64,000 bases of DNA, taken from assembly GCF_014652655.1 (NCBI RefSeq), contig NZ_BMZF01000008.1, positions 1-64,000 on the forward strand, read 5' to 3'. Below the pieces are notes generated by a model, which saw nothing but the letters and a program-made list of their open reading frames with translations, was not told where the DNA came from and made no database searches. This document shows positions 8,131 through 52,870 of this stretch, in pieces (position 1 is the first letter of the stretch; each line of letters opens with the position of its first letter). Made by a program: the position numbers and the translations under genes. This DNA comes from Paramylibacter ulvae (GTDB taxonomy: Bacteria; Pseudomonadota; Alphaproteobacteria; Rhodobacterales; Rhodobacteraceae).

Positions 8131-9546
8131 ATGCCACGCAACAAAGAACCGTCTTTTCGTAAATCCGTAGATATGATGTTTGACAAGGCGGTTGGCCTGT
8201 TGAACCTCTCGCCTGGGCTGGAAGAAAAAATCCGCGTTTGTAATTCGACCTATACCGTGCGTTTTGGGGTGAAACTGCGTGGCGATATTCATACATTCAC
8301 AGGATATCGTTCGGTGCATTCAGAGCACAAAGAACCGGTAAAGGGCGGCATTCGTTTTGCAACATCTGTGAACCAAGACGAGGTCGAAGCCTTGGCCGCG
8401 CTGATGACGTATAAATGTGCCTTGGTCGAAGCGCCGTTTGGCGGATCAAAGGGTGGTTTGCACATTGATCCAAACGCATGGGAAGCGGATGAATTGGAAC
8501 GCATCACGCGCCGATTTGCGTTTGAGCTAATCAAGCGTGATTTGATCCACCCGTCACAAAACGTGCCCGCACCCGATATGGGCACGGGAGAGCGTGAAAT
8601 GGCGTGGATTGCCGATCAGTTCCGCCGCATGAACACAACCGAAATCGATTCAGAGGCTTGTGTCACAGGCAAACCGTTGAACAAGGGCGGCATCGCGGGG
8701 CGGGTCGAGGCGACAGGGCGCGGTGTGCAATATGCATTGCAAGAATTTTTTCGCCATCCCGATGATGTGAAAATCGCGAATATGACCGGCACGCTTGATG
8801 GTAAACGCATTGTGGTTCAGGGGCTTGGGAATGTGGGATATCACGCGGCCAAGTTTTTGGCCGAAGAAGATGGCGCATTGATCACAGCCGTGATTGAACG
8901 CGACGGTGCGGTGATTAATGACAAGGGTTTGGATATCGAAGAATTATCAGGCCACATCCGCGCCAACGCAGGTGTGAAAGGTTTCAAAGGGGGGGAATAC
9001 GTCAAAGACGGATCTGCCGTTTTGGAAAAAGAATGCGATATTCTGATCCCCGCCGCGATGGAAGGTGTGATCAACATGGACAACGCAGATCGCATCAAAA
9101 CCAAGCTGATTATCGAGGCTGCGAATGGCCCTGTGACCGCGGGAGCGGATGAAATTTTGCATAAAGCGGGCGTCGTGATTATCCCTGATATGTATGCCAA
9201 CGCAGGTGGTGTGACGGTGTCATATTTTGAATGGGTAAAGAACCTAAGCCATATTCGGTTTGGTCGTATGCAGCGACGCCAAGAAGAAGCGAGCAATATT
9301 TTGTTGATCCAAGAAATGGAACGGCTTGTCGGCAAACCTGTGTCTCAAGAATTCAAAACCAAGTTTTTCCAAGGTGCGGGTGAATTGGAATTAGTGCGCT
9401 CTGGATTGGAAGACACGATGCGAACATCCTATCAATCAATGCAATATGTTTGGCATAGCCGCGATGATGTGGACAGCCTGCGAACCGCGGCCTATCTGGT
9501 GTCATTGGGGCGTGTTGCAGATAGTTATAAGGCGCTTGGCCTATAA
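8131..9546 (+). CDS. Glu/Leu/Phe/Val dehydrogenase, probably NAD(P)-glutamate dehydrogenase
   Basis: About 471 residues. The N-terminal catalytic domain has HSEHKEPVKGGIRFA and KCALVEAPFGGSKGGL with the substrate and catalytic lysines. VPAPDMGTGEREMAWIAD follows, and the Rossmann domain has VVQGLGNVGYHAA. It interconverts glutamate and 2-oxoglutarate plus ammonium, so it can regenerate the amino acceptor for the divergent aminotransferase. The frame opens earlier at a TTG (8101), but AGAAGGA at 8117-8123 points to the ATG pair at 8128/8131; 8131 has the better spacing. Its end overlaps the PP2C gene on the other strand by six bases. Confidence 0.9.
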   Translation: MPRNKEPSFRKSVDMMFDKAVGLLNLSPGLEEKIRVCNSTYTVRFGVKLRGDIHTFTGYRSVHSEHKEPVKGGIRFATSVNQDEVEALAALMTYKCALVEAPFGGSKGGLHIDPNAWEADELERITRRFAFELIKRDLIHPSQNVPAPDMGTGEREMAWIADQFRRMNTTEIDSEACVTGKPLNKGGIAGRVEATGRGVQYALQEFFRHPDDVKIANMTGTLDGKRIVVQGLGNVGYHAAKFLAEEDGALITAVIERDGAVINDKGLDIEELSGHIRANAGVKGFKGGEYVKDGSAVLEKECDILIPAAMEGVINMDNADRIKTKLIIEAANGPVTAGADEILHKAGVVIIPDMYANAGGVTVSYFEWVKNLSHIRFGRMQRRQEEASNILLIQEMERLVGKPVSQEFKTKFFQGAGELELVRSGLEDTMRTSYQSMQYVWHSRDDVDSLRTAAYLVSLGRVADSYKALGL

Positions 9547-17040: not shown

Positions 17041-20000
17041 ACGGTATAATTGACGCTGCATTTTCCCGTTCGCGCGTTGTTGCGTTAACGCTGATTATGA
17101 TCCTGATAATCGGGGCGATTTCATATGTTTCGATCCCCAAGGAATCCAACCCTGAAATTCCAATTCCGTTGATTTACGTTTCAACGGGTTTGGATGGTAT
17201 TTCACCCGAGGATAGCGAACGCCTGTTAGTGACTCCGCTTGAAACAGAGCTCAGCTCGTTAACAGGGTTAAAGCAAATTGATGGCAACGCGGGTGAAGGA
17301 TACGCCAGTGTGCAGCTTGAATTTGAACCCGGGTTTGATGCCGATTCTGCAATGGACAAAGTTCGCGAAGCCGTTGACCGTGCGAAATCCGATTTGCCGA
17401 CTGATGCAACCGACCCTGTGGTCACGGAAATCAACACCGCGTTATTCCCGATTTTAACAACCATCCTGTCGGGTTCTGTGCCAGAGCGCACATTAAATAA
17501 CCTTGCCGAAGATCTAAAAGATCGACTGGAAGGTGTTGAAGGTGTGTTAGAGGTGGATGTTGGTGGTTCGCGCGATGAATTGTTAGAGGTTCTGATCGAT
17601 CCAACGGTTTTTGAAACCTACAATATTTCATTTGATGAATTGATCGGACAGATCACGCGCAACAATATGTTGATTGCGGCGGGTGCGATTGAAACGGGGG
17701 CAGGGCGCTTGGTGCTTAAGGTGCCAGGCCTGATCGAAGATATCCAAGATGTAATGGAATTGCCCGTCAAAGTACGCGGCGATACCGTGGTTACATTTGC
17801 CGATGTCGCCACAATACGGCGCACATTCGAGGACCCATCCAGCTTTGCGCGCATCAACGGACAGCCCGCCTTGGCGTTGGAAATTAAAAAACGCTCTGGT
17901 GCCAATATCATTGAAACCGTTGCCGCCGCCAAAGAGGTGATTTTGGATGCACAGGCCACTTGGCCCGAAAGCGTGAAAATCAATTACCTGCAAGACGAAA
18001 GCAAACAAGTCAAAGACATGTTAAGCGATCTGGAGGCAAATGTTATTGCGGCTGTGATCTTGGTGATGATTGTGATTGTTTACGCGCTTGGCATTCGATC
18101 CGCGGTATTGGTCGGGTTGGCCATTCCAGGGGCGTTTTTGGCGGGTGTTACCGCATTGTTGGCAATGGGGTACACAATGAATATCGTTGTGCTGTTTTCC
18201 CTGATTTTGGTTGTGGGCATGTTGGTTGATGGTGCGATTGTGACCACCGAATTAGCAGATCGTAAATTGCAAGAAGACATGCCCCCCAAAGAGGCATACG
18301 CATTTGCCGCCAAACGTATGTCTTGGCCGATTATTGCATCGACCGCCACAACATTAAGCGTGTTTTTCCCGCTGTTGTTTTGGACAGGTACTGTCGGCGA
18401 ATTTATGAAGTTCTTACCGATTACCGTGATTATGACGCTTGGTGCATCATTGTTTATGGCGCTGATTTTCATCCCTGTTGTTGGTGGAATTATTGGCAAA
18501 CGCCCGCCGCAATCGGCGCGCGATAAGGCAACATTGCATAACGCCGAAATAGGTGATCCGCGCAAAATGGGTGGATTTACGGGTGGTTATGTTCGCCTAT
18601 TGCAATGGGCGATTTTGCGCCCCGGTGCGACCGTCTTGTTTGCCATTGCAATGTTGCTTGGATCGTTTGGGTTGTACGGACAGTTGGGCAATGGGGTTTC
18701 GTTTTTTCCATCGGTTGAACCCGATTTCATGCAGGTACAGGTGCGTGCGCGGGATAATTTTTCAATTTATGAACGCGACGGTTTGGTGCGATCTGTTGAG
18801 GAACGTTTGTTAAACTATGATGAAATCAAAAGCGTTTATGCAAAAACTGCCGCCGATCAACAATCAGACGAAGAGGTGATTGGCTCAATCCAGCTTGAAT
18901 TATTGGATTGGGATAAACGACGCACCGCGGCACAAATCGGCGAAGACATTCGCGAGGAAATGACTCAAATCGCGGGTATTGATGTACAGGTTCAAACCGA
19001 AAGCGGTGGCCCAACGGCGGGTAAGCCCGTGAATTTGAAAGTCGTCTCAAATGATCGTGCGGCGCAAGAAGCCGCGGTGGGGGAAATCGTTGATCGCATG
19101 GATAAAATCGGTGGATTCACAGATGTGACCGATACGCGCCCATTGCCAGGTGTGGAATGGAGCATCAAGGTTGATCGATCAGAGGCCGCGCGTTTTGGTG
19201 CAGACATTAGCCTGCTTGGCCAAGCAATTCGCCTGTTAACGCAAGGGATCACCGTTGCCGATTATCGCCCAGATGATGCAGATGGCTCGGTGGACATTCG
19301 TGTGCGTTTCCCATCCCAAGACCGCACATTCGAAGAATTGCAAAGCCTTCGTGTGCCAACAAATGCTGGCTTGATTCCGATTTCGAACTTTGTAACATTC
19401 GAACCTGCACCACGCACGGGCACTATTCGTCGGATTGATCAAAAACGGGTGATTTCGATCGAAGCAAATGTTGCATCAGGTGTGTTAGTAAATGATCAAA
19501 TCAATGTATTACGCGCCGCATTGGAAAAAACTGAATTTCCATCCAGCGTGACGTGGTCATTTGCGGGTGAAGCACAGGATCAGCAAGATGCCATGATTTT
19601 CCTGATGGGTGCGTTCGCGTCCGCGATTGGTATGATGTTCATCATCTTGGTGACGCAATTCAACAATTTCTATGAAGCGTTCGTTGTGATGTCAGCGATT
19701 ATCTTTTCGGTGGCGGGGGTTTTGTTGGGCTTGATCGTAACTGGCCGCCCGTTTGGTGTTGTGATGGGTGGTATCGGGGTGATCGCGCTTGCGGGTATTG
19801 TGGTGAATAACAATATCGTTTTGATCGATACCTATAACGATCTGAAACGTGAAGGCATGTCACCGCTAGAGGCCGCATTGCGCACAGGTGCGCAACGTTT
19901 GCGCCCTGTTGTATTGACCTCTATCACGACTGCATTGGGATTGATGCCGATGGTGATAGGGTTGAATATCAACTTTTTCACGCGGGATATTGTTTATGGC

Positions 20001-28072: not shown

Positions 28073-29887
28073 TTGAATGTGAATGATGACCGTCGCCAAA
28101 ATGAAACGAAGCTTGATCGGGTGAAAAATCAGATTTCGTTTCCAAGGGTTGCGATATGTGTATTGCTGGCGATGGCAATATTGCAAGTTGCAGTATTTTT
28201 GCAGCATGGCAATTTTGGATCGCCCAAGGAATATCCTGTTCCAATTATTGTGGGCATTGTTCTTGGCCTTATCGTTGCATCCGTAGATCACGTTGTCAGA
28301 GCGACGCACAAACGGTTGCATCTGGAGCTTGAAGAAAAAGAAAAACTATACGACATCCTGAAATTAAGCGAAGAACGCTTTTTGCTGGCAACAAAACGTT
28401 CATTTGTTTGGGATTGGGATATCGATTCAGATGCGCTCTACATGTCACCGGGGTTTGCAGAAAGTTTGGGTTATTCATCAGATGAATTAAAACAGGCGAT
28501 GAACGGTACAACCACAAATTTATTGCATCCCGACGACAAAGAACAATATCACAGGAAACTGAAGGCTCATTTGGCCGATCCCTCCGTAGGGTATATAAAC
28601 GAACACCGTTTCAGAACCAAGTCGGGGCGATATAAATGGTTCCTTGCAATTGGACAGTCTGTGGTTGACGAAACAGGACGGGCAATTCGGTTTAACGGAA
28701 CCACATCCGACATTTCAGAGCGCATAGATTTAGAGGCAAAACTAAATCAAACTCAGAAAATGGAAGCAATCGGAACCTTAACTGGTGGTATTGCCCATGA
28801 TTTCAACAATTTACTAGCGATTATCATGGGTAATCTCGAATTGTTGAAAGACGAGGTCAACAATCCTGAACATAAACAATTGATTCAAAATGGAATGGAA
28901 GCATCCCAACGTGGCGCAGAGCTCACACGTAATATGCTTAGCTTTGCGCGAAAATCACGGTTGGAACCAGCAGTTATCGAATTAAACCAGCTCATTCTAA
29001 ATTTGAAAAGTTGGACGGGGCGCACGTTATCCGCAGCGATCGAAATCGAAACGTCCCTGCTCGCTGGCCTATGGCCCATAGAGGCCGATAGAAGTTCGAC
29101 TGAGAGTGGCTTGTTAAATCTGATACTTAATGCGCGCGACGCGATGCCTAACGGCGGCAAGCTGACGATTGAGACGTCCAATGTGCGCGTTGATGATGAT
29201 TACGTTGAACTGCGCGGCGAAGAAATTGCGCCGGGGCGATATGTATTGTTAGCTGTAAGCGATACAGGGCAGGGTATTGAAACGGAAAACTTAGAAGCCA
29301 TTTTCGAGCCTTTTTTTACCACGAAAGCCGTAGGTTCTGGCTCGGGGCTTGGGCTTTCTATGTTAGAAGGATTCATGCGCCAATCAGGGGGTACTGTGCG
29401 TGTTTATTCAGAGTTGGATGTTGGTACGACGTTCAAGCTCTACTTTCCTGCGTGCGAACGCGCAGAAGTTGTTGAAAAAACAACTAATACCACCTCGCCA
29501 AAGCGCAACGTAGATGATCGTCCAACAATTTTAATGGTGGACGATAATATTCAGGCTTTGACGGCCTATCGCAGCATGCTGATGAAAGCGGGCTTTCATA
29601 TTGTGGATGCGGTTTCAGGCGACGAAGCATATGCCAAGTTCGTGGAAAACCCCGCCGTTGATCTGTTGTTGACCGATATTGTGATGCCAGGAGAGTTGCA
29701 GGGCACAACCTTGTCCAAGGAGCTACGAAAAACCAAACCTGACTTGCCGGTAATATATATGTCTGGGTATGCTGCAGAGGCGACCGTTCATGGGAATGGG
29801 CTTCGCGCGACAGATATTCGTTTGATGAAACCATTCGGTCGTACGGATCTTCTGCGGGCAATCAACAAGGCACTTTCGCGTGATTGA
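28073..29887 (+). CDS. PAS-containing hybrid sensor histidine kinase with receiver domain
   Basis: About 604 residues. Two membrane helices near the N-terminus (VAICVLLAMAILQVAVFLQ; PVPIIVGIVLGLIVASVDHVV), a short coiled coil, a PAS domain with PAC (about 100-215), the H-box GGIAHDFNNLLAIIMGNLELL (His near 242), the ATPase part with LNLILNARDAMPNGG and GSGSGLGLSMLEGF, and a C-terminal receiver TILMVDDNIQALTAYRSML with phospho-acceptor Asp535 in LLTDIVMPG. No output domain or separate regulator is nearby, so its target is unknown. The start is uncertain (TTG 28073 or GTG 28079). Confidence 0.88.
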   Translation: MNVNDDRRQNETKLDRVKNQISFPRVAICVLLAMAILQVAVFLQHGNFGSPKEYPVPIIVGIVLGLIVASVDHVVRATHKRLHLELEEKEKLYDILKLSEERFLLATKRSFVWDWDIDSDALYMSPGFAESLGYSSDELKQAMNGTTTNLLHPDDKEQYHRKLKAHLADPSVGYINEHRFRTKSGRYKWFLAIGQSVVDETGRAIRFNGTTSDISERIDLEAKLNQTQKMEAIGTLTGGIAHDFNNLLAIIMGNLELLKDEVNNPEHKQLIQNGMEASQRGAELTRNMLSFARKSRLEPAVIELNQLILNLKSWTGRTLSAAIEIETSLLAGLWPIEADRSSTESGLLNLILNARDAMPNGGKLTIETSNVRVDDDYVELRGEEIAPGRYVLLAVSDTGQGIETENLEAIFEPFFTTKAVGSGSGLGLSMLEGFMRQSGGTVRVYSELDVGTTFKLYFPACERAEVVEKTTNTTSPKRNVDDRPTILMVDDNIQALTAYRSMLMKAGFHIVDAVSGDEAYAKFVENPAVDLLLTDIVMPGELQGTTLSKELRKTKPDLPVIYMSGYAAEATVHGNGLRATDIRLMKPFGRTDLLRAINKALSRD

Positions 29888-30051
29888 TTTTTTCTTGGGT
29901 TTCGAGGGGTGTTTAATTTCTTTAGAGCCAGTTTGAAGTGATTACTTTTTTATTTTTCTGAATTTCGCAAAACTTAGTACAAAACTTTAAGAACATTGGC
30001 CTCGCTAATAAATTTCTTCACAAAATTTGGACATCAGTTTTCTCAGACCCA

Positions 30052-30077
30052 ATTCCTTTTCAGCCATGAAAAGGAAT
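30052..30077 (+). promoter_or_regulatory. Perfect hairpin that contains the ribosome binding site of the HTH gene
   Basis: ATTCCTTTTCA (30052-30062), loop GCCA, TGAAAAGGAAT (30067-30077): 11 exact pairs. The AAGGAA that would serve the ATG at 30082 lies in the right arm, so the folded RNA would hide it. It could also be a DNA operator for the encoded HTH protein. Confidence 0.65.
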
Positions 30078-30081
30078 AGAA

Positions 30082-30462
30082 ATGTTAACCACATATGAAA
30101 CCGCCCTACATTTTGGACTGACGAGTGCGACGGTGCGTCGGTATGCGCGTGCGGGCAAAATTATTGGGCACACGGTGCTGCGCGATTATAGATTTAGCTG
30201 GGAAGTGATTTGGGGATGTGAGCAGGGGCCAATGCCGCGCGGGAGGCGCTGTGCGCTCTATAAAATACCCTTGTTAAACAAGGCAGAGCTCGGAACTCTA
30301 ACAGGGCATAGTGTGCGTACGATTGAACGTTGGATTGATGCTGGGCTACCAACACGCAATGTATTTGCCAATGTGCGTATCAATAAGCATGACGCGTCAT
30401 GCTGGCTTAAAACTGAATATGGCTTTGACTTGTCGGCCGCGTCTCAGCGGGACCTGCCATGA
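30082..30462 (+). CDS. Small protein with two helix-turn-helix domains, excisionase-like
   Basis: A 126-residue basic protein. The first unit (TYETALHFGLTSATVRRYARAGKIIGHTVLRDYRFSW) and the second (LNKAELGTLTGHSVRTIERWIDAGLPTRNVFANVRINKHDASCWL) both look like MerR/excisionase-type winged helices, in which a helix-turn-helix is followed by a short hairpin. Such proteins direct tyrosine recombinases, so an excisionase or control factor for the two recombinases downstream is likely. It starts five bases after a hairpin that covers its ribosome binding site. Confidence 0.65.
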   Translation: MLTTYETALHFGLTSATVRRYARAGKIIGHTVLRDYRFSWEVIWGCEQGPMPRGRRCALYKIPLLNKAELGTLTGHSVRTIERWIDAGLPTRNVFANVRINKHDASCWLKTEYGFDLSAASQRDLP

Positions 30463-30758
30463 TGGTGTTTTACACAGATATGACATGCGTATTCGCGACA
30501 GAGCATTCTTTTGGAAATATTTTGCACAAAGGCCCCCAAACAGGAATTGGGGTTATGTTTGTTGGCCTGTTTGTAAATCCCTGCGTTTCGACGACAGACT
30601 GTGCAAATAGGCAGGTTCTGAAGAATTTTTACGCTGCGTATAAATTGGGTATCTCACTGGGCTCCAATCGGTGCGCTTTCTCCATGTGGTTTGTCGTTCA
30701 GGTCGTTTCTTGTGAACGCCGTGGACGACAAACCACATTTTTTAAATAGGAGAGCAAA
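30463..30758 (+). other. Structured leader between HTH gene and recombinases, possible small ORF or RNA
   Basis: About 296 bases. A 96-codon frame starts with ATG at 30459, overlapping the HTH stop, but its product (cysteine- and phenylalanine-rich, no motif) looks unlike a real protein. The stretch has several stems, including CCCCAA/TTGGGG (30534-30552), and ends in the large hairpin at 30684-30743. An untranslated leader or small RNA is the better reading. Confidence 0.4.
30684..30743 (+). terminator. Long-stem hairpin with T-run directly before the recombinase genes
   Basis: ATGTGGTTTGTCGT (30684-30697) and ACGACAAACCACAT (30725-30738) are exact 14-base arms, with a weaker inner stem GTTCA/TGAAC. 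T30738-T30743 follow directly. It looks like a terminator or attenuator that stops transcripts coming from the HTH gene 16 bases before the recombinase start; a recombinase binding site is the alternative. Confidence 0.6.
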
Positions 30759-32705
30759 ATGACAATTCTAAACAACAAAGGATTCAAGGTTGGGACAACC
30801 ATATTTTTATCAGAGGTTTTGAAATGGGCCGAAGAGAATGGGGAACCTTATGGCAGCATATGTGAATTAAAGAAAGTGCCTGCTCGCCTTGGCCTTTGTG
30901 ACCAAGATCTCGGTTCTATCTCCGCCGATCTACAGTATTTTGAAATTAAAATCGCAACATCACCTTATGGGACGGTATCGAAGTCAAAAGATCTGGAAGT
31001 ACTGCGCAAGCGGGCTAACTCGCGGTTGCGCTCATTACTGAAACGCTTTCACGCAGATCGTGGAAACATGCCAAAGCAAGTTGGGCGCGAAGAGTGGACA
31101 CAATTGATAATGGCGGTTCAAGCCTTTGAAGGGTTTGCGGATCGCGGTGCGGTTTTTACAACTGGGCAATCGCGAACACTGACTTCTTTGCGCGCACGGG
31201 CAAGTGTTGCACCCGTTGATCTCTGCCAAGGGGAGGTTGATCGCATCGTTAAAGTCGCGAAATCTGAAAAACGCCGCGCCATCACGAAAGGTGTTCGATT
31301 TTTAAATCGGTTGATCACAGAATTTGGCGATCATCCCGCGTTTATGGGATTGATCCCCACAAAACCATTTATCGTTCCCGCAGGGTCTGATCGGGCAAAG
31401 CGCATTTTGTGGAGCAGCTTACCACAAGAACTGCGCGTATCGGTGGAAACCGTAATGGACGCAATGTTGGCAACACCTGAAACCATCTCAGCGGCACATA
31501 TCGCTCGCATCCATGCCGGTGAAGATAAAGATCAAGTGAGAAAAGAACTTACTCTTTTGATGACAGACAAACGCGTTGTGCCTCAGAATGCAGAAGCGGC
31601 GAAGGCTGGTTATAAGAGTGCTGTGACATGGCTTGTGCGCGCCGCCGAGGAATTAGGGATGGATCGCAATCAGTTTGCGGATTTGGAAAGCTTGATGAGC
31701 CTTGAGATCATGCGTGCGGCTTGTGATCAGCAAATTGAACGAAGTAAAAACTCGTCTACGTTAAAGGATGCAAACAAAACGCAATCTTTGATGTCACGCC
31801 TAACTGCTTTGCGGACCTTAGCCACACATGGATTGAAGAATGAAGACCTTATCTTACACATTAATTTGCTTCGTGGCCAACACGGTCAAGGTCATAATGA
31901 GCGCAAGCGTCGTAGATCGGAACATGCTGATGAAGTATGTCGGGTTATACAACGTCATCCACATCTTGCAGCGAACTTTGTGAATGCTCCCCAAACAATT
32001 GCAGATATAGCGGAAAAACGGATCACTGCTGCACGCGAACAGGATAATGACGAGGCTGAGCAACGCGCATTGCGTCTTTATGCTACCGCTGTTGCCTTTG
32101 CAGTACAGGTCTCGCGTCCGATCCGTACCTCAAACCTTATACGTCTGCGTCATCGTGCAAGTGAGGATTTGCTTGGGAATGTGGAATGGCTGGACAATCG
32201 TAAACACGCGCGTCTGACATTCAAAGAGAACGAGGTTAAAAACAGCAAAGTCATTGTTGTGCATCTGCTGGGTGCAGAAGCGCTGATACTTGAGAAATGG
32301 TTATCGAAATATCGGCTGCGGTATTGTGAACTGCGGGGTATCGCTGACAGTGTATATGTGCTGCCAGGAGATGCGACGCCACGATTGGGAAAGGGCAACA
32401 TCTCGCTACCAAGGGGTTGTGTAAGCCCAAGTACGATGTCGGAGCTTTGGGATGATGGTGCCAAAATAATTGGTCTTAATCTGACACCACATGAATCACG
32501 ACATGTAGTTGCCACGCTCATTCTTGCGATCGAACCTGGTAATTTTTCAAAGGTGGCGTCTGTCCTTGGAGATACGACTGAAACAGTCATGAGCCACTAT
32601 GGGCGCGATAGTGGTGAGCAGGCAGCCTGTGATGTTCTGAAGGCGATTAAAGCTCAGCACCCGGGCGTATTAAATCGAATGAAAAACAGAGAACATAGAA
32701 AATGA
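30759..32705 (+). CDS. Large tyrosine recombinase A with altered catalytic histidine
   Basis: A 648-residue protein. The C-terminal 200 residues are a tyrosine-recombinase catalytic domain: Arg456 in RPIRTSNLIRLRH, His578-x-x-Arg581 in TPHESRHVVATLIL, and the nucleophile Tyr614 in SHYGRD. Where most members have LGH, this one has LGD (Asp605). The first 430 residues are helical and unlike short phage integrases, close to the size of TnpB-like recombinases. GGAG stands before the ATG. Its stop overlaps recombinase B by four bases, so the two are made together and probably act together. Confidence 0.82.
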   Translation: MTILNNKGFKVGTTIFLSEVLKWAEENGEPYGSICELKKVPARLGLCDQDLGSISADLQYFEIKIATSPYGTVSKSKDLEVLRKRANSRLRSLLKRFHADRGNMPKQVGREEWTQLIMAVQAFEGFADRGAVFTTGQSRTLTSLRARASVAPVDLCQGEVDRIVKVAKSEKRRAITKGVRFLNRLITEFGDHPAFMGLIPTKPFIVPAGSDRAKRILWSSLPQELRVSVETVMDAMLATPETISAAHIARIHAGEDKDQVRKELTLLMTDKRVVPQNAEAAKAGYKSAVTWLVRAAEELGMDRNQFADLESLMSLEIMRAACDQQIERSKNSSTLKDANKTQSLMSRLTALRTLATHGLKNEDLILHINLLRGQHGQGHNERKRRRSEHADEVCRVIQRHPHLAANFVNAPQTIADIAEKRITAAREQDNDEAEQRALRLYATAVAFAVQVSRPIRTSNLIRLRHRASEDLLGNVEWLDNRKHARLTFKENEVKNSKVIVVHLLGAEALILEKWLSKYRLRYCELRGIADSVYVLPGDATPRLGKGNISLPRGCVSPSTMSELWDDGAKIIGLNLTPHESRHVVATLILAIEPGNFSKVASVLGDTTETVMSHYGRDSGEQAACDVLKAIKAQHPGVLNRMKNREHRK

Positions 32706-34042
32706 AACATAGATTAACGGTTGAGGAGCGTATGGCCTCGGCACCACTGGCGGTGCAAAATGCAGTCTTGGCGCAAAGTCACCCCTTAGAGCCTGGCGCG
32801 GTATCGGTGATGGGGCGGTTCTTTGATGCGCTGGAATTGCGTGGTGAAGCGCATGACAACCCGTCCACAGCGGTGTTTACGGATGCGGCAAAATCTGAAT
32901 CAACCTTAGCCACGTTACTAAAATCTCTTGAAACTTATGCACCACAAATCTGTACTGCTGCGGGGCGCGATTTGCGTCGGGACTATTATCGCGCACGTAC
33001 TGAGGCGCAAACTCAAGATCGACCTAATGAAGGTGCAGTGATTCCTGAAACCGCTCCTTCAAAGTGGCCCGCTGCTTGGCAGGCTAAATACGTCGGCATT
33101 TATCATGCGCCAAACCTTAGGCCGGCCACAAAGAAACGCCATATCGCATCAATCTCGCGCTGTGCTGATTTACTGTTGGTTGCGGGCGCTGATGCAACCT
33201 TGGATTATCTGACGGGGTATTTATTGGCACAAGAACTGCGCAAGCGGGGTATTAAACATAAAACCATTGCAGGCTATCTCGGTGGATTGCTCGCTTTAGA
33301 AAAATACAGTGAAGCAGACGGGGTCACAGTCGCGAGTTTAAATAGCCTTATTCAACAGCATCTGACCGATGCAAAATTTGAGGATAAAGAAAAGCTGCCA
33401 AGGCTGCAGACGATCATGGCACAGGGTGGGTTTGCATTTATTGCGGAAACCGCGGGACAATTGCGATCAGCGGCAGCCGCGCGGGCAGGGTGGACATTGC
33501 AAAAACAAAGGTTGCTGCAAATGGTTGCGCTGTTAGCGGTTCACATGAACAAGCCTGCAAGAACCAGCGATGTGGCGCGCTGGGTGATTGGTGTTAACTT
33601 GATCCGTCATCCCAGTGGTTTGTGGGAGCTGGTTTGGGAGCAACAAAAGACAAGTGTGGAAACTGAAGCGGGTTTATTGTGGGAAGAGGTCTCGGAAATA
33701 CTTGATGAACTCATCCTTGGCGGGCGCCCTGATCGCACGATTCATCAGCGCTATGATACGTTGCAAGGGGCAAACTGGTTGACCTTAGAGGATAGGTGTT
33801 TGGCATCAAAATTGCCAAGCCAGCTTATCAAGGAAGCAATTGGCATACCCAGCCATGATTTGCGCACATTGGCGGCGGATTACCTGCGGCTACATGATCC
33901 AGAAACGGCGCCAAATACCATTAGAACCCATCTTGGGCATTCCACGTTTGAGGCCGGCAAAGAGTATAGCATTCTGTGTGAAAATGATGTGGCGGATCAA
34001 ACTTGGAAAGACATCCGCGAGACCGTCAAAGCTAAGCTATAA
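32702..34042 (+). CDS. Tyrosine recombinase B, partner of the preceding gene
   Basis: A 446-residue protein with the full catalytic set: Arg287 (KPARTSDVARW), His385-x-x-Arg388 (SHDLRTLAADYLR), His413 (HLGHST) and the nucleophile Tyr422 (KEYSILC). Residues about 115-215 form a core-binding-like helical domain (LRPATKKRHIASISRCADLLLV; KRGIKHKTIAGYLGGLLALEKY). It differs strongly from recombinase A, so the pair is not a recent duplication. Because A has Asp at one catalytic place and B has the usual His, the two may do different cleavage steps; this is inference. Confidence 0.8.
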   Translation: MKHRLTVEERMASAPLAVQNAVLAQSHPLEPGAVSVMGRFFDALELRGEAHDNPSTAVFTDAAKSESTLATLLKSLETYAPQICTAAGRDLRRDYYRARTEAQTQDRPNEGAVIPETAPSKWPAAWQAKYVGIYHAPNLRPATKKRHIASISRCADLLLVAGADATLDYLTGYLLAQELRKRGIKHKTIAGYLGGLLALEKYSEADGVTVASLNSLIQQHLTDAKFEDKEKLPRLQTIMAQGGFAFIAETAGQLRSAAAARAGWTLQKQRLLQMVALLAVHMNKPARTSDVARWVIGVNLIRHPSGLWELVWEQQKTSVETEAGLLWEEVSEILDELILGGRPDRTIHQRYDTLQGANWLTLEDRCLASKLPSQLIKEAIGIPSHDLRTLAADYLRLHDPETAPNTIRTHLGHSTFEAGKEYSILCENDVADQTWKDIRETVKAKL

Positions 34043-34062
34043 ACAGATGAATTCCCATCCGA

Positions 34063-34110
34063 TTTGAATCTCTGCGCAATCTTCTTTGTGAGATCGCGCA
34101 GAGGTTCAAA
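34063..34110. repeat. Large inverted repeat after the recombinase genes
   Basis: TTTGAATCTCTGCGC (34063-34077) and GCGCAGAGGTTCAAA (34096-34110) pair at 14 of 15 positions around 18 bases. It starts 20 bases after recombinase B. No T-run follows, so it is either a weak terminator or a binding/recombination site of the element. Confidence 0.6.
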
Positions 34111-34139
34111 CCTTCTGAAGCCTCAAAATAAACTGAACC

Positions 34140-34161
34140 AATATTGGGTGGTGCCAATATT
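34140..34161. promoter_or_regulatory. Perfect inverted repeat before the two small genes
   Basis: AATATTGG (34140-34147) and CCAATATT (34154-34161) around GTGGTG. It lies 92 bases before the first small gene and 29 bases after the previous repeat, a suitable place for an operator of the small-gene pair. Confidence 0.5.
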
Positions 34162-34253
34162 AAACATCAATCGTGACGCCAAACCGAAAGGAAAAACCAA
34201 GCCGTTCTTGAGCCAAGGTAATACCGCCTCTGGCACCAAAAAAGGAACATCAT

Positions 34254-34634
34254 ATGTTCGATTTTCTCAACGATCCGCTGAACGAGCTGCGGGAATTTGC
34301 ACTGACCCATCAAGAGGTTTTGCAAAACATCTCCTCCCTCTTGGGCGGAGGGCGCGCGCTGCGCCGCACACAACACTTACTCGACCGCGTTGCAATGGCA
34401 CCAAAGCTGACGCGCTATATGATCAATGAACTGAACCAGCTGCGCAGCTTTCTGTACTTTGATGATGAAGCGCACAACCCCTATGGCAATCATCCATCGT
34501 CTGATGTGATGCCCCATCCCGAAACGCCGATTATCGAGGATATTTGTCTGCTAAGCGACGGATTTAACGATGTGCTGATGCGCCTTGGCAAAGCTGAAAA
34601 CATTCCACTGTTGCAAAAAGGGGGCTTGTTATGA
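34254..34634 (+). CDS. Unknown 126-residue protein, first of a coupled pair
   Basis: Not recognised. The product is soluble, mostly helical and has no signal peptide (MFDFLNDPLNELREFALTHQEVLQNISSLLGGGRALRRTQHLL). An acidic histidine-rich stretch lies in the middle (LYFDDEAHNPYGNHPSSDVMPHPETPII). AAGGA stands before the ATG. It overlaps the next gene by ATGA, so the two products are probably partners. The size is close to TnpC of Tn554 (about 125 residues), but no sequence likeness is claimed. Confidence 0.6.
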   Translation: MFDFLNDPLNELREFALTHQEVLQNISSLLGGGRALRRTQHLLDRVAMAPKLTRYMINELNQLRSFLYFDDEAHNPYGNHPSSDVMPHPETPIIEDICLLSDGFNDVLMRLGKAENIPLLQKGGLL

Positions 34635-35047
34635 GAACGACCCTTTATGACCGTTTGGATGAATATGTCTTGCCTGCAATTCAAGCGGGGCGTTGCTTTG
34701 CCCAAGCTTGGGAAAACTGTTGTGATCAGACGCCTGGCTTACGCTACAATGGCTTTGCACCAACGATAGCGCGGCTTTTGGAGTGCGAAATCCTTACCGC
34801 CAAGGACAGGGATATCATCCAGGAAATGGGCGGTTACATCCGCGCTGAGCTCAACGCCATGGTGCAGGGCTACGGCGATGTCGCACTGTCCCAATCGACC
34901 CATGATCATGAGGTTGTTGACCCACTTCAAGAAGCACTGCGACAGCTCGCAGAAGAATGGAAATCACTCACCGCACTTCATCAAAACATCCATGATGTGA
35001 AAGCCGCAATCCATTTCCATAACTGGGTTTTGAAAGAGTTGCCCTGA
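34631..35047 (+). CDS. Unknown 138-residue protein, second of a coupled pair
   Basis: Not recognised. A helical, soluble protein (LYDRLDEYVLPAIQAGRCFAQAWENCCDQTPG at the start; a long C-terminal helix pair DPLQEALRQLAEEWKSLTALHQNIHDVKAAIHFHNWVLKELP). It overlaps its partner by four bases and is followed by a GC-rich hairpin. It may be element cargo, an accessory recombination factor or part of a two-protein system; the sequence does not decide. Confidence 0.6.
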   Translation: MRTTLYDRLDEYVLPAIQAGRCFAQAWENCCDQTPGLRYNGFAPTIARLLECEILTAKDRDIIQEMGGYIRAELNAMVQGYGDVALSQSTHDHEVVDPLQEALRQLAEEWKSLTALHQNIHDVKAAIHFHNWVLKELP

Positions 35048-35067
35048 TCATTACAAAACAAATGAAC

Positions 35068-35088
35068 CCCGCGGTGTTTGATCGCGGG
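35068..35088 (+). terminator. Hairpin after the small-gene pair
   Basis: CCCGCG (35068-35073) and CGCGGG (35083-35088) around nine bases, with GGTTTTG a few bases later. Probably the end of the element's transcript. Confidence 0.5.
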
Positions 35089-35244
35089 ATTCAGGTTTTG
35101 AGACATGTTTTTCTAGTAAACTAACTGGATACGCCGAGGCTACGTGCACGAATATCCACCCCCATTTACCATATCGAACAGGATAGGTGTGCGGGAGGCA
35201 TATTATATTACAATAAACAATTACACGATGTTCGAAAACATAAC

Positions 35245-35859
35245 CTATTCAATCTCGCCTGTAGTTGTCTTTGCGCCAAAGAGATCTCCATCGATCACAC
35301 CATATTTTGCTTCCAATTCGTGTAAAGCATCGCATTCTACTGAACCGCGGGCGAAACGATAGTCTTCCGAAAGAAAGCTTTTTTCTCTACCCGGAGTTGC
35401 TGCCGCAGTAAATAAAGCAACGTTTTGGATTGCGAGATATTCCATCATTTGTTCATAAGTGGCTTTATACTCGAACTGCCAAGCAAGCGCTAAATCGACA
35501 ACGACATGAGAAACCTCCTCGACACTTAACGCTTTTAGGAAGTAAGCGGAAGTTCTGTTCGAAAACCAAGTATCTTCAACAGAGGCTTTAAAAATTTGAA
35601 AGTTTTCACGTTTTAAGAGGTGCTCATACGATAATGCGTGGTTGATATATGCTTCCAGAAAGGCACTCGATCCCGATATCTGATCTTCAAAATTAACAAG
35701 TTTATTCGCGGCGCTGTGCATTCCAAAGGAAAGTTTTGAGATAAGCTGAGCGTCACTACACATCTCGTAGACATAGTCTAATTCAGCACGGTAAATAGCA
35801 GCACCTGGGATATCGTTAAGGCCTGGTTTTTTTGGTTCTTCAATGATGATATTCATCAA
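35245..35859 (-). CDS. Unknown 204-residue protein in AT-rich DNA
   Basis: Not recognised. A soluble, helical protein (YRAELDYVYEMCSDAQLISKLSFGMHSAANKLVNFEDQISGSSAFLEAYINHALSYEHLL) without signal peptide or membrane helix. It lies between the recombinase element and the SulP gene in DNA clearly richer in A and T than its surroundings, which suggests recent arrival, perhaps as cargo of the element. An inverted repeat lies 19 bases upstream of its start. The function is open. Confidence 0.6.
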   Translation of the reverse strand: MMNIIIEEPKKPGLNDIPGAAIYRAELDYVYEMCSDAQLISKLSFGMHSAANKLVNFEDQISGSSAFLEAYINHALSYEHLLKRENFQIFKASVEDTWFSNRTSAYFLKALSVEEVSHVVVDLALAWQFEYKATYEQMMEYLAIQNVALFTAAATPGREKSFLSEDYRFARGSVECDALHELEAKYGVIDGDLFGAKTTTGEIE

Positions 35860-36363
35860 TTTTTTTCCTGAATTTAGGCTGTGAATATGGGTTCACAGCG
35901 GTTTAATTTATGAGATCATCCAAGAATTTGAGTGATCCTATGGAACATATTAGGTTCTTTAAAAAAGCAGGAAGCGGATTGAGTAAGTTTTTTTCAAAAA
36001 AGATAAAAATCGGAACTGGCTCTCCGCAAATTTGAAGCCTTCATGTTGAAAAATACGTGTTTTTTATCGGGTTATTGTGAATGTTCAGTTGGTAAAATAA
36101 ATTTTTTTATTTAACTATTTAGCCGTTTTCGACTACATTGATTTCTTTTTCATGCTTAATTTCCAATTGTTAAGATGAACCGGAGACTCTCCATTATTCA
36201 AATGCTCATATTTGTTCCAAAGGCGTTGACGTCAGAGCAGCATAAACCCAGCTCGCGGATTTATTTAGGTTAAATTAATCCGCTTTGTTGAGTATTTCAG
36301 TGGCTGTACAGCTGGAGGTTTTGTGCATTTCTGGCTGCACAAATAGTGTTCTCATCTAATTTT
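35860..36363. other. AT-rich intergenic stretch
   Basis: About 500 bases with no credible gene. Seen are the repeat at 35878-35899 and TTTGTGCA/TGCACAAA (36320-36327 and 36336-36343). The latter lies about 20 bases after the SulP stop and may be a weak terminator for that gene. Confidence 0.55.
35878..35899. promoter_or_regulatory. Perfect inverted repeat upstream of the unknown AT-rich gene
   Basis: GCTGTGAA and TTCACAGC are exact 8-base arms around six bases, just upstream of the minus-strand start at 35859. An operator is likely; the spacing inside TGTGA...TCACA is eight, not the six of a CRP site. Confidence 0.45.
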
Positions 36364-37629
36364 TTATCGATCAGGTGGAATCCAATCTTCTTCTAATTCT
36401 GCATTGCCATGACGCAAGCGCAAGGCAAGCCCCAAGAGAACACCAACACCGATAGCGACAGTTAAGTCAGAGAAGACAGTGAGAACCAAGGTTAAAATGA
36501 GTAGAACCTTGTCGGAGGTCCGTGTCTGTACATAGCCGCGCCATTTGTGCGGTTCACTCATGTTCCATGCTGTCAGGATAAGCAATCCAGCAAGAGCTGG
36601 CATTGCCATTAACCCTGCAAGGGGTGCGGCTAAAATCATGATGAGTAAAATGGTTAAGGCATGAACGATACCTGCGACAGGTGTCTTGCCGCCAGCGCGC
36701 ACATTCGTTGCGGTTCGCGCAATGGCTCCTGTTGCTGGCAGTCCGCCAAACAGAGCGGATCCGACATTGGCAAAACCTTGGGCCAATACTTCTGCATTGG
36801 GTCTGTGATGGCCTCCGATCATTTTGTCAGCAACCATCGCGGACAATAAGGATTCAATGCTGGCAAGGAATGCGATAATAAGAGCAGAAGGGAGCAATTC
36901 TATCATACGCGAAACACTGATGTCGGGAAGTGCCGGTATTGGTAGAGTCCTTGGTAATTCTCCAAACTGTGAAAAGATTGTGTTCACTGGCAGTGCCGCC
37001 ACAACCACAACAGCCGAGGTCATTCCGACGGCAACGATCAGACCTGGAAATTTTGGCGCCAATCGCCTCAGCAAAACAATGAATATCATTGTCGCGAGCC
37101 CAATCGCCAATGCATGGGGATTTAGAGTTTCTCGCGCCGCCCAGAGAACATCAATCTTTTCTACGAATTCTGCTGGTACGTCTTCGATCGCAAGCCCGAA
37201 CATATCTTTTATCTGGCTCGTTGCGATGATAACAGCGATCCCAATCGTAAACCCATTTATCACGGCCTCTGGAACATAGGCCACTAAGCTGCCGGCGCGA
37301 CAAAACCCAGCGATTAGCATGATCAATCCCGCCATGAAGGTCGCCAAAACGAGTCCATCATAACCATGCTCAGCGATTACACCAAAGACGACCACGATAA
37401 ACGCACCCGTCGGGCCTCCAATTTGTACTCGACTCCCCCCCAAGAGCGAGATTAAAAACCCAGCTACGATTGCGGTAACTAAGCCTTTTTCTGGACCTGC
37501 ACCTGACGCTATTGCGATTGCAAGACTTAAAGGTAACGCGACCATCGCTACCGATACGCCTGCGAACAGGTCGCTGGCAAACTGGGTACGATCATATGTG
37601 GCTAGAGTTGTTAGAATTTTTGGCTTCAT
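36364..37629 (-). CDS. SulP-family anion transporter lacking the STAS domain
   Basis: A 421-residue membrane protein with the SulP signature regions: FASDLFAGVSVAMVALPLSLAIAIASGAGPEKGLVTAIVAGFLISLLGGSRVQIGGPTGAFIVVV and FGGLPATGAIARTATNVRAGGKTPVAGIVHA. It carries sulfate, bicarbonate or another anion. Typical members have over 500 residues and end in a cytosolic STAS domain; this one stops about 25 residues after the last helix. The stop is followed by a normal intergenic region, so the short form is probably native. It is divergent from the second RND operon. Confidence 0.9.
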   Translation of the reverse strand: MKPKILTTLATYDRTQFASDLFAGVSVAMVALPLSLAIAIASGAGPEKGLVTAIVAGFLISLLGGSRVQIGGPTGAFIVVVFGVIAEHGYDGLVLATFMAGLIMLIAGFCRAGSLVAYVPEAVINGFTIGIAVIIATSQIKDMFGLAIEDVPAEFVEKIDVLWAARETLNPHALAIGLATMIFIVLLRRLAPKFPGLIVAVGMTSAVVVVAALPVNTIFSQFGELPRTLPIPALPDISVSRMIELLPSALIIAFLASIESLLSAMVADKMIGGHHRPNAEVLAQGFANVGSALFGGLPATGAIARTATNVRAGGKTPVAGIVHALTILLIMILAAPLAGLMAMPALAGLLILTAWNMSEPHKWRGYVQTRTSDKVLLILTLVLTVFSDLTVAIGVGVLLGLALRLRHGNAELEEDWIPPDR

Positions 37630-52176: not shown

Positions 52177-52870
52177 TTGAAGAAGGAGGATGTTCCTTTG
52201 AATGATGATCAACGGGCAATTCGCCGTAAACTTCGTATTTTGAATTATGCCGCCGAATTTGGGTCTGTCGTTAAAACTTGTCGTTATTTCGGCATTGGTC
52301 GCGCGAGCTTTTATCGCTGGCGTGCAGCCTATCTCGAACACGGTGAAGCTGGCCTGATTGACAAATCACCGATCCCTAAATGGCATGCAAACAGAACCGC
52401 TCCTGAGATCGAAGAAAAGGTGGTTTACCTGCGTAAGAAATATCACCTCGGTCTGATCCGTATTTCTTGGTACATGGCGCGCTATCACGAAATACAAATA
52501 TCGGATGCTGGCGTTTATCGTATTTTGAAATGCAATGGCTTGAATCGAGTTCATCGATCATATCATTGAAAAGTTCCCATTCCGTATTTGTGAAATCAGA
52601 ACCCCCTTTCGAGCATCGCTTCGCAATACCCTATCGGGCGGCGGATAATAGTCATGAATTCCAAGCTAAGTTCCATTGGCATGTCGAAGACAAAGGCATT
52701 CGCCACGCATACATCAAACCCAGCTCACCGCAACTTAACGGAAAAGTGGAGCGTTCGCATCGCTCTGATCAACAAGAATTCTATCAATTGCTCAGCTATA
52801 AGGGAGATGTGGATTTGGAAGCTAAACTGGCCGAATGGGAGGCGTTCTATAATTTTCCAATAATGATAGT
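52177..52870 (+). pseudogene. Broken IS481-type transposase
   Basis: The first 125 residues (LNDDQRAIRRKLRILNYAAEFGSVVKTCRYFGIGRASFYRWRAAYLEHG to ILKCNGLNRVHR) are a normal IS481-family helix-turn-helix part. Then the frame breaks: the first catalytic region is missing. IIEKFPFRICEIRT follows in another frame, about 40 foreign bases come in, and the end DNSHEFQAKFHWHVEDKGIRHAYIKPSSPQLNGKVERSHRSDQQEFYQLLSYKGDVDLEAKLAEWEAFYNF is in a third position. The last motif (usually YNYHRPH) is also lost. The gene is dead; no clear terminal repeats remain. Confidence 0.88.

Follow-up and report, generated by a model that had tools for sequence, protein, structure and literature searches.

The window analysed here, a 64,000-nt stretch of the Paramylibacter ulvae genome to whose positions all coordinates refer, carries a recombination module built of a double winged-helix protein (HTH), a non-coding site of about 145 bp and two coupled tyrosine recombinases (INT1 and INT2). 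By sequence comparison the conserved unit is these three genes with their site, and not the five genes that an earlier note, made from the sequence alone, had grouped as one mobile element. We favour, at just short of an even chance, the reading that this is a site-specific recombination module working at its own site, most likely in resolving circular DNA; action at that site is more likely than insertion of islands. The parts of the module are listed below; L numbers denote other loci, G numbers genomes, and G:C numbers contigs of those genomes.

30082-30462, plus strand: HTH, 126 aa, two winged-helix domains (HTH_17, excisionase/MerR-like)
30466-30614, plus strand: conserved non-coding site, about 145 bp, directly 3' of HTH
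30531-30567, plus strand: core of the site, arms GGCCCCCAAACAGG and TTATGTTTGTTGGCC, spacer ATTGGGG at 30546-30552
30759-32705, plus strand: INT1, tyrosine recombinase of 648 aa with a long N-terminal part and its catalytic domain at about 430-640
32702-34042, plus strand: INT2, 446-aa Cre-like tyrosine recombinase (predicted)

All five genes of the earlier note, these three and the small genes S1 and S2 downstream, lie on the plus strand with ATGA overlaps at INT1/INT2 and S1/S2; the reading frames, the 648- and 446-aa recombinases and both couplings are present as it described them.

The site and its proteins

The main finding is the conserved site at 30466-30614, which the earlier note had missed. 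In loci ordered INT1-INT2-HTH, similarity stops at one shared point about 140 bp past HTH, and a DNA model built from four loci (L042, L077, L082, L083), with the window excluded, finds the site in 35 of 45 sources at E <= 1e-5, over both strands and at one place each; the site in the window scores E 3.7e-9. The 45 sources are window positions 20001-50000 and the loci L040-L083, with four exact duplicates among them, INT1 as the selection criterion and genes mapped by iterated profiles. A model refined from the sites themselves, on the module strand, raises the count to 36 by adding L043 (weak, E 3e-6, with HTH on the other strand). The nine sources without the site are L051 and L052 (deleted or fragments), the distant L053-L055, L071 and L078 (INT1 incomplete, HTH not seen), and L069 and L070 (near contig ends). 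Between the end of the HTH match and the site there are 36-63 nt in 34 of the 36, and 1.56 kb in L082.

The site is laid out as two direct GCACA-type motifs, a core with the consensus CCCCAAACATAA-ATCGGCG-TTATGTTTGGGG, and an inverted TGTGC-type motif. Outlying motifs in the window lie, for example, at 30520-30529 and 30600-30607, and its spacer is ATTGGGG where the family consensus is ATCGGCG. Over 30 distinct sites the arms are complementary at 69% of pair positions, and at 24-36% when slid by 1-4. Taken together, the palindromic core, the 7-bp spacer, the outlying motifs, the winged-helix helper and the two recombinases point to a controlled tyrosine-recombinase reaction.

The site is also single. 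The exact core occurs in 10 of 394 family genomes, seven times at the module, once beside a lone HTH (G411) and twice without HTH, while the reversed pattern occurs in one. Allowing at most one mismatch, the core is at the module in all 17 module-bearing genomes, with three other matches across all 17, a result that tests copy number and not discovery because the pattern was written from the same loci; a second core within one mismatch was not found beyond chance level in these 17. Nor does the window hold a second half-site within three mismatches, and the right half-site, at one mismatch, has one other match in the P. ulvae genome against two for a control. A single intact site favours resolution between sister copies over integration, because integration would split it, and that part of the earlier mobility claim which would take integration through the site is not upheld.

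Position bears on another explanation, in our view improbable, by which HTH binds the site as an operator, promoter region or origin and regulates INT1-INT2, with recombination taking place elsewhere. The site does lie between HTH and INT1 in most sources, at near-constant spacing and with repeated short motifs, and G411 has an HTH-site pair alone (L157, G411:C15 at about 19300-19600), with no module recombinase in the 20-kb stretch and no INT1 match in the genome. However, all three genes come before the site in L042, L077, L080, L082 and L083, with 1.56 kb between HTH and site in L082, so it cannot be the INT1 promoter there; since it stays with the module in two gene orders, HTH-site-INT1-INT2 and INT1-INT2-HTH-site, it is not simply that promoter in general. 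The core here, palindromic and with a conserved asymmetric 7-bp spacer, has the look of a tyrosine recombinase core.

The earlier claim of two dissimilar large tyrosine recombinases is borne out. Window proteins were scanned against four family libraries, Pfam, NCBIfam, PHROGs and PADLOC: INT2 has no match in any of the four, Pfam and NCBIfam included, and INT1 is recognised as an integrase by PHROGs alone (phrog_1, E 4e-6). Both nevertheless have the R-K-HxxR-(H/W)-Y set and the fold of tyrosine recombinases. The residues R287, K316, H385, R388, H413 and Y422 of INT2 are invariant in a 24-row alignment, and R453, K494, H578, R581 and Y614 of INT1 in a 22-row alignment, and they include the Arg, HxxR and Tyr noted earlier; INT1 deviates in having LGD in place of LGH before the tyrosine, that is, Asp where the second His is usual. 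Structure models were built from the same numbers of aligned sequences (24 and 22). That of INT2 is good (pLDDT 87.6, pTM 0.61), and the 28 solved chains that match it best belong to Cre or to the Cre-derived Tre (E from 3.7e-5; the title of one says only product synapse complex). INT2 thus models like Cre, as a tyrosine recombinase whose R-K-H-R-H-Y set is complete. The INT1 model is fair (pLDDT 81.5, pTM 0.44); its best matches are XerA and Cre (probability 1.00, E 2e-3 and 5e-3), with none at E <= 1e-3.

HTH matches PF12728 (E 8e-8, with two stretches at the loose limit E <= 1) and the excisionase/regulator family phrog_66 (E 3e-7), in keeping with the two-domain, excisionase-like protein of the earlier note; it is likely an accessory or directionality protein.

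Occurrence and co-inheritance

Of 394 sampled family genomes, 30 have an INT1 match at E <= 1e-3, nine of these matches being strong (E < 1e-100, P. ulvae included), and its relatives beyond chance comprise these nine and 28 loci of genome_contigs. The 28 come from one alignment scan and are by their titles from Rhodobacterales, except one metagenome-assembled genome labelled Alteromonadaceae; a direct scan of genome_contigs with the INT1 sequence gave nothing, and the alignment scan, with one short pattern, did find the loci. The P. ulvae genome has a single INT1, and is the one among 61 relatives searched that has INT2. Plasmid records gave 13 matches to INT1 and nine to INT2, while 50,697 phage records held no relative of INT1 and viral_contigs, scanned with alignment A1, no relative either. 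As far as these comparisons reach, homologues are mostly in Rhodobacterales, and the module occurs on plasmids of marine bacteria as well as in their genomic islands. The modules on three plasmids of a single strain, R. marinus TCYB24, differ from one another.

Among the 45 sources, INT1 is present in 45, INT2 in 44, HTH in 41, S1 in 33, a helicase-like protein (HEL) in 29, a coiled-coil protein in 19, further recombinase-like genes (RINT) in 14, and window-type S2 and X6 in two each. RINT stands for one or two genes right of the module on the other strand. The two sources with window-type S2 are the window itself and L044; in other loci that place is taken by different small proteins, and the cargo after INT2 is variable. 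Divergence was compared by Spearman correlation for unbroken single genes from 29 sources: INT1 with INT2 gives 0.93 (325 pairs), HTH with INT1 0.82 (351 pairs) and HEL with INT1 0.67 (171 pairs), whereas S1 gives 0.09 with INT1 and 0.04 with INT2 (276 pairs). In 14 HEL-bearing loci, S1 gives 0.43 with HEL and -0.02 with INT1 (91 pairs each). These correlations define the unit as HTH-INT1-INT2, with HEL partly accompanying it and S1 coming and going; S1 would then be associated cargo, not co-inherited with the recombinases. The five genes searched as a set, a check that the earlier note had proposed, therefore do not hold together.

HEL has no close solved relative (best E 0.63). Of 16 plasmid records with HEL relatives, eight are annotated helicase, toprim or primase and eight hypothetical. 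On the Sulfitobacter pontiacus plasmid L161, two HEL-type helicases and a distant INT1 relative lie close together. The coiled-coil neighbour was considered as KfrA, a label we dropped as family searches gave no KfrA match. In L069 an AbrB-like gene and a second small reading frame (8500-9280, toxin-antitoxin-like by eye) lie between INT2 and HTH, and are not present in L082, which is 89% similar.

Broken copies are common: INT1 or INT2 is interrupted in L041, L058, L076 and L078, and L051 and L052 hold fragments, although some of these may be sequencing errors. They would suit a decaying remnant that has no current function and is borne along by larger islands, an explanation we think very improbable, as the window copy is unbroken, retains every catalytic residue and has a complete site, and INT1 and INT2 co-diverge tightly.

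One locus may record an exchange at the site. In DNA windows left of the site, L046 is 0.70-0.90 similar to L047 and 0.57-0.90 to L057 and L058; from the core rightwards it is 0.68-0.85 similar to L057, 0.57-0.93 to L058 and 0.40-0.72 to L047. Its HEL protein is nearest that of L047, but its HTH is nearest those of L048 and L079, and its S genes and RINT are again L047-like. This mosaic, switching near the site, hints at exchange there, although homologous recombination would serve equally and L046 was chosen for the comparison after the similarity data had been seen.

Islands and the role of the module

Pseudooceanicola batsensis HTCC2597 (L079) and Oceanicola granulosus HTCC2516 (L081) share a common island of 51 and 42 kb, respectively, 96.5-99.9% alike in the aligned parts and varying along its length. 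The gene in which both copies lie belongs to the Dus family and is dusA by its N-terminus; at that end of the island is a gene for a 415-aa Phage_integrase protein, and HEL-HTH-INT1-INT2 are internal. By eye, these islands also bear genes of copper/sulfur type. A third island, 20.8 kb of DNA inserted in G129 by comparison with G460, lies directly against tRNA-Ser(CGA); it ends in a gene for a 365-aa Phage_integrase protein (PF00589, E 7e-16), with 2.7 kb between that edge and the end of INT2. Beside the same tRNA-Ser(CGA), G458:C14 and G459:C22 carry another, different insert of about 9 kb. In the three islands with placed ends, the module, being internal with an ordinary integrase at the end, would not be the integrase of the island. 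Association with horizontally moved DNA, as suggested earlier, is supported by the near-identical islands in two genera.

In the window, synteny with the congener G020 (the best DNA match) breaks at 29892 and resumes at 52855, and 29893-52854 is absent at the matching place. The right edge is marked by a broken transposase at 52180-52860 with an rve_3 domain (IS481-like by eye), of which copies lie elsewhere in the P. ulvae genome (C13, C2, C1); G020 has at the corresponding place an SDR gene that the window lacks, and parts of the window cargo have relatives elsewhere in G020 and other congeners. The broken transposase and the missing SDR gene mean that the segment is not a clean insertion, and they leave its mode of arrival untold.

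The main rival to resolution is that INT1 and INT2 are the mobility machinery of a self-contained element like Tn554, GInt or SE, excising and inserting either a smaller unit or the whole 29.9-52.9 kb segment, its cargo beginning after INT2, which we consider unlikely. It draws on the absence of the segment in G020, on HTH beginning 0.2 kb inside its left edge, as gin operons lie at the left end of GInt islands (PMC5385486, in excerpt), on the variable cargo, and on the near-identical islands of two genera, which indicate horizontal movement of module-bearing DNA. Against it are the single intact site described above, the untidy right edge, and the other integrase that accounts for the ends wherever these are placed.

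We therefore return to resolution of circular DNA. INT1 and INT2 would be co-produced and would probably form a mixed complex that acts on the palindromic core, with its 12-bp arms and 7-bp spacer, while HTH, and perhaps the recombinases too, would bind the outlying GCACA/TGTGC motifs and so set topology and direction. The module would most likely resolve multimers or cointegrates of a host plasmid or of an excised island, as do Cre, TnpI and TnpS/TnpT; the adjacent HEL, related to plasmid primases and helicases, would fit DNA that replicates at times as a circle, and insertion would be left to another integrase where island ends are placed. The different modules on three TCYB24 plasmids and the relatedness of HEL to plasmid primase/helicases also point towards resolution. 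Catalysis at the core, cooperation of INT1 and INT2, and resolution as the purpose are what we infer from features read in sequence: the genes, folds, catalytic residues, the site with its position, single place per source and conservation, and the internal location in three islands.

Several points weigh against this. Resolution is argued from architecture, and folds and sites are common to integrases and resolvases. The contig with the window copy is 131 kb long, and a histidine kinase gene also present in G020 lies 0.2 kb from the copy; Pfam detects no integrase on the contig, the window has no tRNA, and the P. ulvae genome is without HEL. The internal position comes from three islands, the ends of most others not being placed. 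The core palindrome is conserved but shows little covariation (41 of 1000 shuffles score as high). The distant relatives L053-L055 have no such site: in the interval from HTH to INT1, L053 and L054 show another inverted repeat, around TTTACGGSCCAAAT, and L055 a related short stretch (by eye). No core within one mismatch accompanies the second, distant INT1-like genes of G451, G454 and G103, and one of the three extra core matches lies 2 kb from a weak INT1-like match in G454. Loss of the KfrA label for the coiled-coil neighbour, finally, lowered our confidence in resolution slightly, from even to just below.

Modules with two recombinases are usually filed under integrases of mobile elements. 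The sequence here points to one that has a compound site of its own and is borne both by plasmids and by islands in which a different integrase is already present. If circle resolution is its role, these islands would pass through a plasmid-like phase. A system that resolves dimers is a requirement of circular replicons (PMC11724359, in excerpt). A bolder version, which we regard as doubtful, is that of an undescribed family in which two large tyrosine recombinases, unrelated in sequence, serve with a double winged-helix partner on a dedicated 145-bp site and, with the primase-type helicase, form a maintenance block letting Rhodobacterales islands live partly as replicating, multimer-resolving circles. 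The palindromic site with its 7-bp spacer, together with the new enzymes, is also a possible tool for genome engineering.

Known systems and neighbouring features

The fold of INT2 is closest to Cre, and the short core with inverted arms and a short spacer recalls Cre/loxP and XerCD/dif; XerCD also works with two recombinases. INT1 and INT2, in contrast, are larger and coupled, and their site carries outlying motifs over about 145 bp beside the genes. The nearest layout is that of TnpS/TnpT-rst (Tn4651-type), which like TnpI-IRS (Tn4430/Tn5401) has a tyrosine recombinase and a compound site of inverted repeats and extra motifs beside its genes, TnpS/TnpT also having a helper protein (PMC7157771, in excerpt). 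The module shares this trait of a compound core-plus-accessory site adjoining recombinase and helper genes, but has two large catalytic recombinases where those systems have one, a double winged-helix helper, and a resolution role that is only proposed. No Tn3 transposase, as membership in a Tn3 transposon would entail, is among the annotated neighbours on four plasmids, the only neighbourhoods searched.

With the Tn554 family (TnpA, TnpB, TnpC) the module has in common that neighbouring genes encode two tyrosine recombinases, a long one (>600 aa) and a shorter one (PMC3414803, in excerpt); unlike there, HTH precedes in place of TnpC, and ends were not found. Tn554-like proteins of pNL1, taken as such from Table 2 of the PMC3414803 excerpt together with size and annotation, and compared as single sequences, one cut at 354 aa, in place of Tn554 itself, give an hhalign probability of at most 0.6% with the module and no blastp match below E 0.05. 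INT1 has a weak profile match to the 463-aa gene of a pNL1 trio (39.7%, E 3e-4); as INT2 reaches blastp values of E 0.004 with RINT and E 0.025 with the coiled-coil protein, matches of the pNL1 type are near noise. That trio, at 102783-108180 of the pNL1 record (L159), consists of three coupled genes of 463, 595 and 741 aa, by size a GInt/SE-type trio on an alphaproteobacterial plasmid.

GInt (ginABCD) and SE (intA-tfp-intB-srap) likewise have multi-gene tyrosine recombinase operons on islands with variable cargo. GInt, however, has three tyrosine-recombinase-like genes and ginD, with the operon at the 5' island end between short direct imperfect repeats, whereas two recombinase-fold genes form the operon here, internal in G129 and in the two dusA islands; the window module is near the left edge of its segment, with a transposase remnant at the right. 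SE differs in its described gene set and has terminal inverted motifs C/C'. A conserved intact site beside the genes, as found here, is not mentioned for GInt and SE in the excerpts of PMC5385486 and PMC10214605, and that of PMC10214605 reports no Tfp/Srap homologues in Alphaproteobacteria. The gene set of RIT also differs (PMC10214605, PMC3414803, PMC5385486, in excerpt), so that the unlikeness to Tn554 and RIT remarked on in the earlier note stands. Two module-bearing islands sit in dusA, as do islands of dusA-specific integrases (PMC4482086, in excerpt), but in these two the integrase is a separate gene at the island end, neither INT1 nor INT2. Listings of open-licence papers gave no description of the module, and the suggestion of an undescribed family holds as far as these and the database searches go.

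The remaining features of the locus are the following.

30684-30738, unstranded: inverted repeat upstream of INT1, 24-nt arms, 88% complementary
34063-34110, unstranded: stem-loop between INT2 and S1, inverted repeat with 20-nt arms, 90% complementary
34254-34634, plus strand: S1, 126-aa small protein, function unassigned
34631-35047, plus strand: S2, 138-aa small protein coupled to S1

The two inverted repeats are those the earlier note had seen before and between the gene blocks. Hairpins resembling the first also lie 5' of INT1 in L042, L069, L082 and L083, and stem-loops comparable to the second at the same place in several other loci (both by eye). The folding of 34040-34150 is 4.8 s.d. 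above shuffles (z -4.8). The stem-loop after INT2 breaks at its centre in L073 and L075, where no second half was found that would make S1-S2 a cassette inserted there. Rfam gave nothing credible over 29000-37000 (best E 1.9). PADLOC returned an HTH domain match (mad1) and a weak P0006 match (E 0.03), from which we did not adopt a defence function.

Beyond S2, a 204-aa protein at 35245-35859 (minus strand) has no convincing family match (best E 0.03); the Roseivivax plasmid pTHAF40_a encodes a 31% relative, about 3.4 kb to the left of the HTH there. At 36122-36250 lies a dispersed repeat of about 116 bp, with copies in the P. ulvae genome, several of them at contig ends (C1, C2, C11), and in congeners.

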